The translations under genes and the position numbers were made by a program. DNA of 41,655 nucleotides. Source: a virus. Shown here one piece after another: positions 2,440 through 41,655 of the stretch. The first letter of the stretch is position 1. Every line of letters starts with the position of its first letter. The DNA lies in the IMG/VR virus record IMGVR_UViG_3300025309_000244, positions 1 to 41,655 of that record; one strand, 5' to 3'. Below the pieces are notes generated by a model. It saw only the letters and a list, made by a program, of their open reading frames with translations, did no database searches and was not told where the DNA came from.

Positions 2440-3180
2440 TCAATGCTTCCTGAAAATCCCAAATAGGACTGCGAACCCGGCCAGGATGAGTAAGGTGGGC
2501 GTCAAGATCCTCCAGCTAACGCCCAGCAGAGCGATCAAGCCGACCGATATCGTCATCAGTCCAAAGAGCAGCGAGCCAAAGCCGCCGATGGCAGCCTTAC
2601 CGCCGCGCAGCATGCAGACCAAACCGCCCAACAGCGCTCCCACCCCTGGAATCAGGATGGCAACTGCCCACCAGCGGAAGGGGTCAAAAACGGCTGGAAC
2701 GTCGTAAATGCCAAGGTTCTTGGCTAAAAAACCGGCGCCAAGGAACATCGCGCCCAAGCCAATCCACAACCCAATATTGAGTATCCCCCCGACTCCAGTG
2801 GGCGCTTGGGTGCCGAAACCTTCCAGGAAAATTGCCAAACCGGAAACCAGCACCATCAACGGCCACCATTTTGACCAGTCCAGTCCGAAGAGGAACATGA
2901 GCGACAGGGTCACCAGAATCAGCCCGCCGCCCAGCCCGGCGCGTACCGCAGCACCAAACCTGCCAGAACGTTGTAGTTCCGAAAAGCCGCCGCCGAGGGA
3001 CGCCAGCGCCGGAACCAGAATGAATAAGGCCCACCAGTTATAGCGGGCGCCAAGCCAGCCAACCTGTTGGGCGAGAAGTATGATACCGCCAATGATGAAA
3101 ACCAATCCCCAGATCCAACTGCTGCGTTTTTCACGCTTTTCCGGTAACCGTGTTTGCGTTTCGACCGACTGTTGATTCAT
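2440..3180 (-). CDS. multi-pass membrane protein (LiaI/LiaF-like transmembrane region)
   Basis: The 246-residue product starts at ATG 3180 with GGAGG five bases upstream. A short charged N-terminus (about 20 residues) precedes roughly seven or eight hydrophobic segments, many starting with Trp-Trp and containing runs such as GGIILLAQQVGWLG and ALFILVPALASLGGG. This resembles the transmembrane region of LiaI/LiaF/DUF5668-type proteins, which occur in envelope-stress contexts. No extracellular C-terminal LiaF domain is present, so it may be a stand-alone membrane module. It is the last host gene before attL; its upstream region lies next to the attachment core. Confidence 0.6.
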   Translation of the reverse strand: MNQQSVETQTRLPEKREKRSSWIWGLVFIIGGIILLAQQVGWLGARYNWWALFILVPALASLGGGFSELQRSGRFGAAVRAGLGGGLILVTLSLMFLFGLDWSKWWPLMVLVSGLAIFLEGFGTQAPTGVGGILNIGLWIGLGAMFLGAGFLAKNLGIYDVPAVFDPFRWWAVAILIPGVGALLGGLVCMLRGGKAAIGGFGSLLFGLMTISVGLIALLGVSWRILTPTLLILAGFAVLFGIFRKH

Positions 3181-3263: not shown

Positions 3264-3281
3264 AAATGTCAAACGCCCGGG
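3264..3281 (+). repeat. attL core, 18-bp direct repeat
   Basis: AAATGTCAAACGCCCGGG is identical to 41529-41546. The flanks differ at once on both sides (A versus T before the repeat, A versus T after it), as expected for attachment-site products. The repeat lies between the host membrane-protein gene and the end of the phage tail operon. Confidence 0.85.
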
Positions 3282-3289: not shown

Positions 3290-3338
3290 CATCTATACAC
3301 ATAAATTCTCGCATTTTTATTGATTATATCATTGTCGT

Positions 3339-16821: not shown

Positions 16822-17281
16822 GGATTTCTCCCGTTTTAGCCGCCTGTTGGATACGTTCCCTGAACTCCGGCCAGAATTTTTGTTCGAATTCATCCCAGGC
16901 GCCCTCCTCGCTGGCGTTGACCACATCCTCGAACTGCCACCAGCGATCCACATGCACCTGCGCCTGGAATTTTTGCCGTCCGCCGTGCATTTTTCCCGGG
17001 AAATCCTCTCCCACCACCCACGGCGCGTACGCCAGGTTGGTGCCAAGCTCGCCGATCACCGCATTGCTCTCGATATCGACGGCCTCTGTAAATCTGCGCC
17101 CCAGCATGCCGGTGCGCTTGTAGCTCGAGCCCGGTATCGCCGGCGGATAATCGGGCAGCTCGCCGTGCAGAAAAATCAGCGCATCCACCATCGCCGGTTG
17201 CGCCGCATCCAGCGCCAGCTCCGGCAGCATCTCGATCATCGTCATCAACTCCTCGGTCCCGTAATAGATGAATTCCGGCAT
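16814..17281 (-). CDS. HK97 gp10-like head-tail / minor structural protein
   Basis: 155 residues from ATG 17281 (MPEFIYYGTEEL), which overlaps the stop of the portal fusion; its own stop overlaps the capsid start by eight bases. The central segment SSYKRTGMLGRRFTEAVD followed by NLAYAPWVVGED matches the pattern of the HK97 gp10/tail-completion family, which has an RTGxL core and a Y-A-x-x-V-E strand. Members usually lie after the capsid; here the gene lies between portal and capsid. The C-terminus is acidic and helical. Confidence 0.55.
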   Translation of the reverse strand: MPEFIYYGTEELMTMIEMLPELALDAAQPAMVDALIFLHGELPDYPPAIPGSSYKRTGMLGRRFTEAVDIESNAVIGELGTNLAYAPWVVGEDFPGKMHGGRQKFQAQVHVDRWWQFEDVVNASEEGAWDEFEQKFWPEFRERIQQAAKTGEIHA

Positions 17282-19557
17282 TATTCCGCCTTTTTCCCCA
17301 GGTGCGGCCCCTCGGATATCACCACGCGGTGCAGATCGCGGCAGCCGTCCACCGCTCCCCATGGGGTGGTCAGCGGCTGGGTGCACACCCGCTCATCCCG
17401 CGCCGTGTACCATACCAGAACTTTCGTTCCATCGCTCATTTTCCATGGCTGCAGGTAACAGCGGCATTTCACGTGCGCCGCGGGTTTGTATGCCGCCGGT
17501 GCGTAACCCGCCTGCTGCCAGCTCATCGCGTTGGCCGCCGAGAAACTGTTGGTGGCCTCGGTAATCGCGATCGTTTCGGCGCGTTCCGGGCTGAAAATCC
17601 GGCTGCCCTCCTCGGTCAGGCTGCCGATGCGCTGGGTCAGGCCGTCCAGTCCCTCGCCGGTCTGCGACCACTGCGCCACCTGCTGGCCGATCTCGCGTTT
17701 GGTGGTATCCATCACGCCCGTCACCAGCTCGCCGGCGTGCCGTTTGGCCCAGGTCGCCACCTGTTCGTTGGCAAGCTCCCAGTTGACGCTGATAGCAGTT
17801 TTACCCAGCGTCGCCTGCACCCGCGCCACTGCCTGTTTGGTCAGCTCAAGCAAGACCGGCTCAATGGTGCCCTGCAGTTGAGTGGCCATCGCCGTCCACA
17901 GCGCCGCATCCTCCAGGCTGGCCGGATCCCCGTTTTCGCGCAATTTGCTGATCAGCGCATCGGCCTGGTCGCGCAGCACCGGCGCCAGTTCGGCTGCCAG
18001 GCGCTCTTCGTAACTGGACCACGGCCGCCACGAGCGGATCACATTTTTGCGCGCCCGCTCGAAAATCGTTGCCACATCCTCCGCCTGACTCGCGCAGGAC
18101 AGCCCATCCGAAATTAACTCGGCCAGTGATGGCTCGATGGCGCTGGAGGTAAACCCAACCGCTGCAGACTGCCCCAGTTTGAGGGATTTCACCGCCTTGG
18201 CCCGCCAGTTGCGCAGGTCCACCTCGCGCAAAGCGCGAGCGGACTCCATCAGCGCGTTGTTGGGTTGTGGCAGCACGTCCGCCATAAACCCGTCCTCCAG
18301 CCCGGCGGACGGCGCGCCAACCTGTCCCTCCGGCGCAGGCAGTTTGTCGCCATCCGGATGCGGCGGCAGGTTCCAGAAACGTTTGCGCCGCTCGTTGATG
18401 GTCATGTCCTGCCGGCTGGCATCCGCCTCGCGCAGCCGCATGTCCTGGTTGATCGGGCGCACATCGGCAAATCGCGCCTCCAGGTCATCCCCATACCAGG
18501 GGTGGATGATCTGGGTATTGATCTGCTCGGCATACAGGCCGTGCACCGCGTAGATGCGCTCCATAAATTTGGCGTAACCTACCGTCGAGTTGGACTCGGT
18601 CGCGTTTTTGTCGGCGTAGCCCGGTGGGTATCCCAGCACCTGGTAGATTTCGTCTTTGGTCGCTGCCCGTCCGCCCAAAAAGTCCATGTCTTTGGCGTTG
18701 TAGCCCAGCAGGTTGACCGCCATTTGATAGGCATTGGTCACCACCGTTCTGCGCCGGTAGGCCGCATAGTCATCCTCAAGCTGCGATTTGACCGCGTCCA
18801 CGTCCGCCGGGTCGATCGGCGCGTTCGGGTTGCCCGAGCTCAGGTTGATCACCGCGCTCGGCATGACGTTGTCCGAGCCGAAAAATGCCCCGTTCCAGCG
18901 CGCCATGGCCATGTCGCTGTCCACCGGCAGCATCCCGGCCACCAGCGGCGACAGCCCGCGGAAAATATCGAACGGGTTGGGGTACTTGAAATGGCAAATG
19001 TACTCTGCCGGAATTTTATAGATCATGCCGTTGGCCTGGTACTCGAAATAATCCACCATGCGCCCCGCTGAGCCCGGCCAGATGTTGACCGCATTCGACG
19101 GCAGCGGCCAGATTTCCGCCAGCTCGCCCATATCATCCGGCGCCAGAAACCAGTACGAATTGCCGTCCAGATCCTGCCACCAGTGGGTGAACTGCCACAG
19201 CAGCGCCCGCCCCATGATCGGGTTCGGCTGCCGTATGACCCGCGTGAACGGATGCCCGTTGATCACCAATCCCTCATCGTTTTGCCCGTCATCCCGGTAA
19301 ACCGACAACCGCCCCTTGCTGACCTCCATCGCCTTTTCGTTGATGGCGGTGAAAACCCAGGAATTCTGGATGGCGCGCTGCTGGGCGCCGGTGCGTTCCG
19401 GCGAAAAATTCCCGCCGCGCCATTTTCCGGCTTCAGCGGTTGCGCCCAGAAATGCCGGGCGCTTGGCGGTCGTATCATCGCTCATTCCGCTGCGGAATGC
19501 CCGCAGCGTTTTCCCCAGGCCAAACGCAATTCGTTCCGCGATATTGATTTGATTCAT
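17281..19557 (-). CDS. portal protein fused to Mu gpF-like head morphogenesis domain
   Basis: 758 residues; ATG 19557 overlaps the TGA of the terminase. Residues about 60-420 are an HK97-family portal: NSWVFTAINEKAMEV, GHPFTRVIRQPNP, then GLSPLVAGMLP and YPPGYADKNATESNSTVGYAKFM. The dodecamer forms the DNA gate at one capsid vertex. After a Pro-rich linker (about 400-440), residues 450-758 are helical and end in a Mu-F-like region: RAETIAITEATNSFSAANA and W-Y-T-A-R-D-E-R-V-C. The C-terminal zinc-type motif has an odd order: the PAAHVKCRCYLQ element comes before TARDERVC, whereas it normally follows. Portal-F fusions are known in some phages. The fusion helps explain why no separate F gene is present. 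Confidence 0.8.
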   Translation of the reverse strand: MNQINIAERIAFGLGKTLRAFRSGMSDDTTAKRPAFLGATAEAGKWRGGNFSPERTGAQQRAIQNSWVFTAINEKAMEVSKGRLSVYRDDGQNDEGLVINGHPFTRVIRQPNPIMGRALLWQFTHWWQDLDGNSYWFLAPDDMGELAEIWPLPSNAVNIWPGSAGRMVDYFEYQANGMIYKIPAEYICHFKYPNPFDIFRGLSPLVAGMLPVDSDMAMARWNGAFFGSDNVMPSAVINLSSGNPNAPIDPADVDAVKSQLEDDYAAYRRRTVVTNAYQMAVNLLGYNAKDMDFLGGRAATKDEIYQVLGYPPGYADKNATESNSTVGYAKFMERIYAVHGLYAEQINTQIIHPWYGDDLEARFADVRPINQDMRLREADASRQDMTINERRKRFWNLPPHPDGDKLPAPEGQVGAPSAGLEDGFMADVLPQPNNALMESARALREVDLRNWRAKAVKSLKLGQSAAVGFTSSAIEPSLAELISDGLSCASQAEDVATIFERARKNVIRSWRPWSSYEERLAAELAPVLRDQADALISKLRENGDPASLEDAALWTAMATQLQGTIEPVLLELTKQAVARVQATLGKTAISVNWELANEQVATWAKRHAGELVTGVMDTTKREIGQQVAQWSQTGEGLDGLTQRIGSLTEEGSRIFSPERAETIAITEATNSFSAANAMSWQQAGYAPAAYKPAAHVKCRCYLQPWKMSDGTKVLVWYTARDERVCTQPLTTPWGAVDGCRDLHRVVISEGPHLGKKAE

Positions 19558-35827: not shown

Positions 35828-36772
35828 TCAGATTAATTTTTCGACTGCCGCGGTCAGATCATCCCAGCCGGGCAGAATATAACGTTTGGTCGTTTCGCTG
35901 CGCGCATGACCGGCCAGCCGCTGAGCCACTGTCACGGGCTCGCCGGCGTCGATCAGGCTCTTGCAAAACGTGTGACGCATGCGGTGCGGCGTCAGCTCCA
36001 GCCCGGCCAGCCGCCCGATTTCAGCCACGCGCCGTTCGACGCTGCGAGTGGTGAGCCGGGCCGTGCCCTTACCGCTAAACACCGGCTCACCACTCTGTCC
36101 GATCCCGCGCAGAGCCAACCAGTAACCCAGCGCCCTGCGCGCTTCGGAGTTCATCGGGATCACACGCCGCTTGTCACCCTTGCCGCGCCGCACCACAATC
36201 CGGCCGGCGCGCTCGCTGAGGATCACATCTCCCAGGTCCAGCGCCACCAGCTCACCGACGCGCAGCCCGCAGTAGCGCATCAGGGCGATCATGGCCTGAT
36301 CGCGTGCAGCCTGCCGGCGCCAGTGCTCCGTGGTCGCGCCGTTGACCAACCGCTCCACCTGGCGCATCATGCGCCCCTGTTCCGGCCGGCTGAGCCAGCG
36401 CGGTTCGAGCTCGACCTCCTCCATGGATTCGACGCCCTGGAAGGGGTTGTACGTGAGATGACCGGCGTGCTGCGCCCACTGGCAGAACACCGCCAGCGAT
36501 GCGCGCCGCCGGTTCCAGGTGGCCGCGGAGATTTTTTCCACGCTCAGCGCATACTCGCGGTAAGCGCGCAGATCGATGCCGGTGATCAGCTCAGGTGTGA
36601 ACGGCTCCCGGTTGATGTCGCAGAACCAGGCGCCAAACCGGTTGATGTCCGAGTTGTAGGCGGCTATGGTTTTGCTGGATTTTCCCCGCTGTTCCAGCCA
36701 GGAGCGAAAATCAGCCTGCCAGCCGGCGGAAATGATTACACGAGTTTGGGAGACGGTGGCCAGGTCGGTCAT
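35828..36772 (-). CDS. tyrosine recombinase (XerC/D-like)
   Basis: 314 residues from ATG 36772 (overlaps the preceding stop). Residues 15-105 form the SAM-like core-binding domain (SWLEQRGKSSKTIAAYNSDI, LAVFCQWAQHAGHL). The catalytic domain has the full set: Arg171 in GLRVGELVAL, Lys198 in RRGKGDKRR, His263-x-x-Arg266 in HRMRHTF, His289 in LAGHARSETT and Tyr298 in KRYIL. All residues are intact. It lies in the replication operon, far from the att sites, and the prophage has a serine integrase at its end. Multimer resolution of replicating DNA or a second recombination activity are more likely than integration. Confidence 0.85.
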   Translation of the reverse strand: MTDLATVSQTRVIISAGWQADFRSWLEQRGKSSKTIAAYNSDINRFGAWFCDINREPFTPELITGIDLRAYREYALSVEKISAATWNRRRASLAVFCQWAQHAGHLTYNPFQGVESMEEVELEPRWLSRPEQGRMMRQVERLVNGATTEHWRRQAARDQAMIALMRYCGLRVGELVALDLGDVILSERAGRIVVRRGKGDKRRVIPMNSEARRALGYWLALRGIGQSGEPVFSGKGTARLTTRSVERRVAEIGRLAGLELTPHRMRHTFCKSLIDAGEPVTVAQRLAGHARSETTKRYILPGWDDLTAAVEKLI

Positions 36773-39397: not shown

Positions 39398-40012
39398 ATG
39401 GCCATTTGTAAATACTGTGGGCGAACTGGCATATTTCTGACATTAAACCAACGGGGATTATGTGCAAGATGTCTTAAGAATATCGAAGAAGATATAAAAA
39501 ATAGAGTTAGGATTGTTGAGGAAAGCGCAGAGTTAATTAAAACATCAAACAATCCCTCAACAATTAAAACCAGGTCAAAGGTTATTGTCGATCATTTGAT
39601 TTTTTTCATGCAAGAATACCAATCAAGGGGTATCGAAACCACTCAGCCGGATCCCCAGACGTTTTTAAAAACAATAATCGCTATCAATAAAGAATTGGAC
39701 GACGAGGCTCCAGAAACAAATTCTAAACTCGGAATTCAAATTAATTGGAATTTACCTCTTAATCCAGGCGGAAAAGAACCTGAAACGCCGGAAGAAATTC
39801 GAGAATTCCACCTCAATAAGTGGAAAAACAACCGGGTAACGTTTGTGCGTGTGATGACTGCAAATGATAGTTATGTGTGCGAATATTGCAAATCGATGCA
39901 CAAAAAGGTAATTCCAATCGAAACAGCCCAGGACGGAATTCCTCATGCAAACTGCACCGCACTCAAAGGGTGTAGATGCTATCATCAGCCCGCGAAAGCC
40001 GATGCGTCCTAG
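39398..40012 (+). CDS. two-zinc-motif protein with Mu gpF-like C-terminal cluster
   Basis: 204 residues, ATG 39398, 12 bases after the membrane-protein stop. N-terminal zinc finger CKYCGRTGIFLTLNQRGLCARC. A long helical, AT-rich central part follows. The C-terminal 60 residues, RVTFVRVMTANDSYVCEYCK, then a PHANC and GCRCYHQP, copy the D-x-x-V-C-x2-C...H-x2-C...C-x-C order of Mu gpF/SPP1 gp7 head proteins. Here it stands in the lysogeny arm, not the head operon. Base composition is clearly lower in GC than its neighbours, which suggests separate acquisition. It overlaps the integrase start. Confidence 0.6.
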   Translation: MAICKYCGRTGIFLTLNQRGLCARCLKNIEEDIKNRVRIVEESAELIKTSNNPSTIKTRSKVIVDHLIFFMQEYQSRGIETTQPDPQTFLKTIIAINKELDDEAPETNSKLGIQINWNLPLNPGGKEPETPEEIREFHLNKWKNNRVTFVRVMTANDSYVCEYCKSMHKKVIPIETAQDGIPHANCTALKGCRCYHQPAKADAS

Positions 40013-41549
40013 CTCCGCCTTCCCCCCCGGTGCGAGCGTGGTTGCCTACCTGCGCGACAGTGGCCACGAAGATCAGGAGCTGTCGGTCGATCAGCAGGAG
40101 CACGCCATCCGCTCCTGGTGCGCTGACCATGGCCTGATCCTCACCCGCGTTTTCACCGACGCCGCCGCGCCGGGATCCTCGACCATCGGCCGCGCCGAAT
40201 TCCGCGCCATGATCAGTCATTTTCATGCGGCGAATTGCGCCGATCGCGGCGTGATCATCTGGAAATTTAACCGTTTCGCGCGCGATATTGATGACGCCCA
40301 GTTTTTCAAGGCGGATCTGCGCCGCCGCGGCTACATCGTCCATTCGCTGCATGACTCCGTCCCGGACGGGCTGGACGGTCGGTTTTTCGAGGCGGCCATT
40401 GACTGGATGAACGCCCGCTATCTGGAGGATCTGAGCGCAGACATCAAACGCGGGCTGCATCACCTGGTGGATCAGTATGGTGGCATGCCGGGCAACCCGC
40501 CTAAGGGTCTCAAACGACAGATTTTTGAGCTTGGCAGGCATCGCGACGGCCGGGTGCGTCAGGCCGCGCGCTGGGTGCCAGACACGGACATGCTGGAGAC
40601 GATCCGCCTGGCCTGGAGAATGCGGGCCGGTGGTTTTGGCTATGGCTCGATCCACCAGGCTACAAAACTCTATACCACTCGACAGTCGTATGCTAATTTT
40701 TTTCGCAACCGCATCTACATCGGCGAGCTGGAGTACGGCGGCCGCCTGATCACTGGCTACTGCGAGCCGATCATAGATCGAGACACCTGGGAGGTTGTAC
40801 AAACCGTTATGGACGCCAATCACTCATCCTACCTGCACCTGCGCCAAAACCATCCGCGCCGGGCCAGGTCAAATTTTTTGCTGTCCGGTCTGGTGCAGTG
40901 CGCCATCTGCAAAACTCAGATGTACGGCAACGTTGTCATGCCCAGAGGGCAGCGCTATGGCTACTACGACTGCGCCAACCGGCGAAATGGCGCCTGCCCA
41001 GACGCCAAACCGATCCCTCAGGTGGTGCTCGAGGACGCGGTGATTGATAACCTGGTCAACCACATCCTGCAAACCGACAATCTTACGCAGTTGCTCAAAA
41101 CCTACCGGCAGGACACGGATGATTTGAGACGCTCCACGCAACAACAGATCGATGCGCTAAACCGGCAGCTCGGGAAGGTACGGCGCCAGCTCGGCAACCT
41201 GGCCGACCTGCTGGCGGAGGATGGCCTCCGCTCTCGGGCGCTGATGAATAAGGTCCGCACGCTGGAGGCCAAAGAGTCTGAGCTGGTGCTACAGATCGGG
41301 GAGCTGGCGGTACCTGTGCAGCCGGTCGAGCTCAAACCCATCGACGAGATCATGCCGACAGTCGAGGAGATCAAAACGCGGCTGCTGACGCCGGAACGAA
41401 ATGCGGACACAAAAAATATCCTCGCGGGCCTCATTGATCACATCGAGGTGCGCCGCGAGGGGAAAAATCAGTTAGTGGGGGTGATCTACTACTACCTGCC
41501 ACCGGCCGGTAAGAATATTTTTATGCCTAAATGTCAAACGCCCGGGTGA
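40002..41549 (+). CDS. int: large serine integrase
   Basis: 515 residues from ATG 40002 (MRPSSAFPPG), which overlaps the previous stop; a longer reading from 39945 overlaps that gene. The catalytic domain runs from about 11 to 150: VVAYLRDSGHEDQELSVDQQ with Ser20 as nucleophile, and IIWKFNRFARD with the conserved Arg. The recombinase domain follows (GMPGNPPKGLKR, about 160-270), then a zinc ribbon (SGLVQCAICKTQMYG and YDCANRRNGAC, about 285-335), and a coiled coil (about 375-430) typical of large serine integrases. It catalyses attP x attB recombination. Its last codons are the att core: the stop TGA (41547-41549) lies in host DNA. In the phage circle the frame would go on for 13 residues, RGVIYTHKFSHFY. 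Confidence 0.92.
   Translation: MRPSSAFPPGASVVAYLRDSGHEDQELSVDQQEHAIRSWCADHGLILTRVFTDAAAPGSSTIGRAEFRAMISHFHAANCADRGVIIWKFNRFARDIDDAQFFKADLRRRGYIVHSLHDSVPDGLDGRFFEAAIDWMNARYLEDLSADIKRGLHHLVDQYGGMPGNPPKGLKRQIFELGRHRDGRVRQAARWVPDTDMLETIRLAWRMRAGGFGYGSIHQATKLYTTRQSYANFFRNRIYIGELEYGGRLITGYCEPIIDRDTWEVVQTVMDANHSSYLHLRQNHPRRARSNFLLSGLVQCAICKTQMYGNVVMPRGQRYGYYDCANRRNGACPDAKPIPQVVLEDAVIDNLVNHILQTDNLTQLLKTYRQDTDDLRRSTQQQIDALNRQLGKVRRQLGNLADLLAEDGLRSRALMNKVRTLEAKESELVLQIGELAVPVQPVELKPIDEIMPTVEEIKTRLLTPERNADTKNILAGLIDHIEVRREGKNQLVGVIYYYLPPAGKNIFMPKCQTPG
41529..41546 (+). repeat. attR core, 18-bp direct repeat
   Basis: Same 18 bases as 3264-3281. It encodes the final residues KCQTPG of the integrase and ends exactly at the codon before the stop. 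The sequence after it, to 41655, is host DNA: AT-rich, no gene seen. Confidence 0.85.
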
Positions 41550-41572
41550 GGGGGGCACCCGAACGTTTGACA
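41532..41572 (+). terminator. long hairpin spanning attR, terminator for the integrase
   Basis: TGTCAAACGCCCGGGTG (41532-41548) pairs with CACCCGAACGTTTGACA (41556-41572) at 15 of 17 positions, loop AGGGGGG. ATATTTT follows shortly after. The left arm is att core; the right arm is host. The rejoined attB would contain the whole hairpin, so the phage appears to target a host hairpin, probably an intergenic terminator. Confidence 0.6.
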
Positions 41573-41655
41573 GGCATATTTTAGCATGTATACCAGGTGT
41601 CTACAAGATAATTGTTTGAAAATGGTTTGTCAATTTTGTAAACGATGATTTCACA

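Follow-up and report, generated by a model that had tools for sequence, protein, structure and literature searches.

The attachment site attP lies within the coding sequence of a large serine integrase gene, at its 3' end, so that integration exchanges the last residues of the enzyme; both this architecture and the swap are shown by the sequence. The stretch of DNA analysed, hereafter the window, is a linear IMG/VR contig of 41,655 nucleotides without an attached host genome. The integrase frame likewise passes through the attP centre in 27 relatives whose attP was mapped, and the overlap is a constrained family trait of this serine integrase lineage rather than a quirk of one prophage, although its functional effect is inferred. 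We regard it as likely that the two encoded integrases, complete in the free phage and amputated in the lysogen, constitute a cis-acting one-way switch, whose consequences for activity, stability and excision are inferred.

The integrase gene of the window runs through the attachment core

The integrase contains a resolvase catalytic domain, a recombinase domain and a zinc ribbon with coiled coil (PF00239, PF07508 and PF13408 in Pfam), and its fold matches those of Bxb1, SPbeta, phiC31 and LI, as expected of a large serine recombinase (Table 1). An alternative ATG start is present at 39945, and the alignment with 15 relatives begins near 40002. The same prophage also carries a tyrosine-type recombinase gene (35828-36772, minus strand; Phage_integrase Pfam E 1.8e-33).

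The 18-bp core, AAATGTCAAACGCCCGGG, occurs exactly twice in the window (3264-3281 and 41529-41546), with no further copy even when three mismatches are allowed; shuffled sequences gave a mean of 0.05 matches with up to 3 mismatches, and 0 of 100 shuffles reached two. No other copy of the core was found in a search across the viral contigs. The first-pass annotation had claimed that the core is in frame with the integrase and ends at its last sense codon, that the following TGA is host DNA, and that the attP frame stays open for 13 codons before a TGA at 3321-3323, and all three claims held. In the lysogen the protein ends in ...MPKCQTPG, the final codons being AAA TGT CAA ACG CCC GGG TGA (TGA at 41547-41549), whereas in the attP reconstructed by joining 41546 to 3282 the 13 further codons encode RGVIYTHKFSHFY. 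Its conclusion that the free-phage and lysogen enzymes differ at the C-terminus also held at the encoded level, in the window as well as in relatives with readable attL, attR and attP. The placement of the crossover, however, is corrected: the attP inverted repeat is centred within the GGG codon 41544-41546 (41544/41545; two adjacent centres score 12/17 and 10/17), and the crossover is therefore assigned to this last sense codon and not to the whole core.

Table 1. Features of the window that bear on the integrase-attP overlap
Feature	Position	Strand	Remarks
Large serine integrase, lysogen (attR) form	40002..41549	+	Pfam Resolvase, Recombinase, Zn_ribbon_recom
18-bp core at attR	41529..41546	+	Read in the int frame; GGG 41544-41546 is the final sense codon
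18-bp core at attL	3264..3281	+	Exact repeat of the attR core
Post-crossover coding tail, free phage only	3282..3323	+	RGVIYTHKFSHFY, then TGA 3321-3323; strand-like part HKFSHFY 3300-3320
P arm of attP, ATTTTTATGCCTA	41517..41529	+	Falls in the coding 3' end of int; matches the P' arm as an inverted repeat, 9/13
P' arm of attP, TATACACATAAAT	3294..3306	+	Counterpart of the P arm in the inverted repeat; conserved in the family
Host LiaF-like membrane protein gene, adjoining attB	2440..3180	-	Pfam; 52% identical homologue beside empty attB
Host right half of attB	41547..41577		Gives TGA and completes the terminator-like hairpin; unoccupied copy in another genome

The host origin of the TGA rests on an unoccupied site. 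Cellular genes lie to the left of attL, encoding CBM9, NrtR/NUDIX and LiaF-like proteins (Pfam). When the LiaF-like protein was searched in 396 genomes of one class, the homologue listed in Table 1 was found, and about 95 bp from it, at the matching distance, that other genome contains a prophage-free GTCAAACGCCCGGGTGAGGGGGGCACCCGAACGTTTGACA, the predicted empty attB. Since this site has the same host gene as its neighbour, both the TGA and the hairpin's right half belong to the host. In the hairpin, 41532-41548 pairs with 41556-41572 (-30.3 kcal/mol, z -4.3). The attB of the window is thus a strong terminator-like hairpin (41532-41572), and related phages target tRNA 3' ends or other terminators, which is unusual for serine integrases.

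The overlap recurs in a family of related integrases

The first-pass annotation had proposed searching related prophages for integrase genes that overlap the attachment site in frame, and such genes were found in 27 relatives, with five members lacking the overlap. Relatives were drawn from viral contigs, and nearly all sequences are metagenomic; cultured phage records offer only distant integrases, the best listed identity being 27%. Host genomes of the family are almost all Chloroflexota, mostly Anaerolineae, and many insertion sites are tRNA 3' ends, others being terminators. The attP geometry is such that the int coding region takes in the left arm and the centre but not the right arm, which lies beyond it, as in the L007 inverted repeat, TTTTATGTCTATA-26 nt-TATAGACATAAAA. 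Centres were assigned from the inverted repeats; a few of these assignments, that of the window among them, involved judgement.

Both forms of the enzyme are directly readable. Many contigs contain an uninterrupted attP that gives the long form, and in integrated members the integrase ORF enters host DNA, which encodes the final residues; among the tRNA-derived endings, the most frequent is RGFEPLTSTVRL, which runs antisense to the tRNA. Pairs of attL and attR were identified in L006, L014, L021, L022, L028, L064, L078 and others. Record L004 carries both junctions in one assembly, with an int-core-P' junction at its start and an int-core-tRNA junction (attR) at its end. The short inverted-repeat attP, the attL/attR pairs and the empty attB meet the single-crossover criterion of large serine integrases.

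In five members (L018, L028, L073, L078 and L082) the gene stops before the attP centre. These are scattered on the tree and represent at least 3 independent events, and the tail is therefore dispensable in some lineages and not universal. A peptide resembling the tail can still be read from their DNA in the P' frame, as expected after recent loss but possibly also under a constraint on the DNA itself. L018 and L028 have in-frame stops ahead of attP with the tail peptide intact 3' of them, suggesting recent loss or possible readthrough. The int stop codon of L073, near 4560, shares bases with an ATG (ATGA); the small frame that begins there, MSNLPGDPSYRHKIVSLPIDYNIHK, looks like the family tail, and its separate translation by coupling is possible; the L073 integrase also occurs as a prophage in L025.

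Residues beyond the crossover are constrained at the protein level

The family sequences show that the post-crossover residues are constrained at the protein level, although some DNA-level constraint is not excluded. The linker between the conserved end of the integrase and the P' arm has 18 different lengths, ranging from 48 to 135 nt, and the tree implies at least 20 changes of length; even so, the phase of the P' arm is identical in 26 of the 27 read-through members, an outcome with a chance of about 1e-8 if changes are independent and each keeps phase with probability 1/3. This count takes the lower-scoring attP centre of the window (a 1-bp ambiguity); without the window it is 25/26. In contrast, phase is retained in only 2 of the 5 members that stop before the attP centre (Fisher p = 0.008). 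The distance from the attP centre to the stop is also tight, 22.9 +/- 4.4 codons against an sd of 22.7 for random stops, whereas host-encoded tails are much more variable (about 0.5 codon in the window, 9 in L021 and L006, 14 in L062 and 52 in L064).

Read in the integrase frame, the peptide past the P' arm shows an alternation of hydrophobic with polar residues (z = 4.4, p = 2e-4), which is not significant in the other frames. An unbiased window scan gave z 3.9 and p = 7.5e-4, frame +2 being marginal (0.047); a held-out test by the same scan, on only 4 tails, was not significant (p = 0.11). The first strong conservation outside the P' arm is at the second base of codon 7, a T in 21/27, and such a conserved second base amid free neighbouring bases is inferred from sequence alone to be a coding signature. 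Substitution counts by codon position across divergent pairs revealed no third-position excess, and we therefore make no dN/dS claim for the tail. The window has the shortest tail of the family (13 codons), without the later basic residues, and only a short strand is expected there. Separately, a convergent coding gene was considered as a general cause of the tail constraint and rejected, as no opposite-strand frame consistently spans the strand region.

Structure prediction points to what the tail may form. We modelled two attP-form enzymes, both contiguous in their contigs, with AlphaFold2: L072 has a terminal strand at 514-522 (local pLDDT 78), and L007, from the clade of the window, has one at 528-535 (local pLDDT 90) following a disordered linker below 50. 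In L007 all residues after about 517 are encoded past the crossover. The tail is accordingly predicted by the models to form a beta strand that docks on the folded enzyme. Known large serine integrase folds align to the L072 model only up to 494-498, ending before the linker and strand; alignment ranges that stop short of the strand are no evidence for a new fold.

Alternative explanations for the conserved tail

A constraint acting on DNA is an unlikely alternative, in which the region past P' would be kept as an extended attP or as a bidirectional terminator between int and a convergent gene, the peptide pattern being a by-product. In its favour, the tail-like peptide persists in the five early-stop members, and the lysine-rich ends of tails are often encoded within A-tracts and terminator stems, for example in L015 and L013. 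Against it, past the arm the second base of codon 7 is kept while neighbouring bases are free, the alternation is frame-specific, and in L012, where the P' phase is shifted, the peptide in the actual integrase frame still alternates.

Neutral overlap, in which attP merely abuts the end of int and an accidentally open frame yields a functionless tail, is also improbable. Five members have lost the overlap, the linker ahead of attP is not conserved, and known large serine recombinase folds end before the tail (model 494-498). These points are opposed by a phase held through at least 20 length changes, a tail length much tighter than chance, a strand pattern confined to the integrase frame and a docked strand predicted in two models.

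A degradation tag, which would give the free-phage enzyme a short life and leave the lysogen form stable, as happens in the integration-dependent immunity of mycobacteriophages, shares the topology of that case (attP inside the ORF, a longer viral and a shorter prophage form; PMC4557955) but is very unlikely, given that the tails end in many different residues (Y, S, K, H, R, P, D and others) without a common motif and that the conserved feature is an internal strand.

A proposed cis-acting switch

In the switch that we favour, the gene of the circular free phage would run past the crossover, adding about 14-33 residues that include the predicted docking beta strand, and this full-length enzyme would integrate the phage by attP x attB recombination. 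A crossover at the central GG would exchange the tail DNA for host DNA, leaving a lysogen integrase without the strand that ends in arbitrary host-encoded residues (in the window, at an immediate TGA). The integrase would thus be altered at the moment of its success, with an inferred lower or redirected activity in the lysogen that would be reset on excision. Since the extra C-terminus is under protein-level constraint and a strand is predicted, the difference between the two forms is unlikely to be cosmetic. Nevertheless, the lysogen form keeps all catalytic and DNA-binding domains, and any loss of recombination is only inferred; the earlier suggestion that the overlap biases integration versus excision or tunes stability remains an inference without experimental data.

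The directionality factor of phiC31 binds the integrase via its zinc domain (PMC5814800), and direction has been controlled by fusing this factor to the integrase (PMC5737554), and it is therefore plausible that an element at the C-terminus, adjacent to the zinc domain, biases direction. A bolder reading, which we judge less likely than not, is that these enzymes form a bacterial family of self-altering serine integrases in which the C-terminal strand adjoining the zinc ribbon is a cis-encoded directionality element: the full-length enzyme would be committed to attP x attB, and loss of the strand on integration would lock lysogeny or enable excision without control of int expression. It is equally possible, as an alternative to a direction bias, that the lysogen enzyme is locked down and rescued by an excision factor or a superinfecting phage.

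Directionality is a central question for serine integrases, underlies their use in genome engineering and is credited to a separate directionality factor; integration that edits its own enzyme would be a built-in one-way switch. The family also supplies natural long and short integrase variants for comparison, as well as new integrases directed at tRNA ends and terminators.

Relation to known systems

The closest precedents are the suicidal tyrosine integrases of archaea and the integration-dependent immunity of mycobacteriophages. Self-disrupting recombinases have been called exclusive to archaea (PMC8371274). As in the family described here, the archaeal suicidal integrases (SSV1, pTN3 and pT26-2 types) have the attachment site inside their own gene, which integration alters, and the 27 members satisfy this criterion. 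The archaeal enzymes, however, are tyrosine recombinases split into two fragments that are shown or thought to be inactive, whereas the present enzymes have serine recombinase domains (Pfam), failing the tyrosine-recombinase criterion, and lose only a C-terminal strand. The idea of a self-altering integrase is thereby extended beyond archaeal tyrosine recombinases.

The first-pass annotation had likened the arrangement to integration-dependent control in actinophages with attP in a repressor gene, and this held in part. Mycobacteriophage BPs likewise has attP near the 3' end of an ORF, with a longer viral and a shorter prophage form, but there the truncated gene is the repressor and its tail an ssrA-like degron (PMC4557955). 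Here attP lies in the integrase gene, and no ssrA-like degron is indicated, as no terminal residues are shared among the family tails.

The integrases of phiC31, Bxb1, SPbeta and LI have the same domains, the same fold up to the terminal hairpin and a short attP inverted repeat; alignment to them ends before the linker and the predicted docked strand. To our knowledge, no well-studied large serine integrase has been described with attP inside int, and in the literature searched, open-access only, no serine integrase gene was reported to contain attP.

Further observations at family insertion sites

On the attL side of the L021 prophage, L095 (9049-9131) carries the tRNA-end core as two partial copies separated by 61 bp, which suggests that the same tRNA had been used for integration before. 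A copy of the integrase 3' end precedes attL in L125 (about 17187-17290) and L112 (about 63-195), which suggests tandem prophages or remnants at one site. The ends of L114 / G048 share a 127-bp terminal repeat, indicating a circular assembly with attP at the junction.
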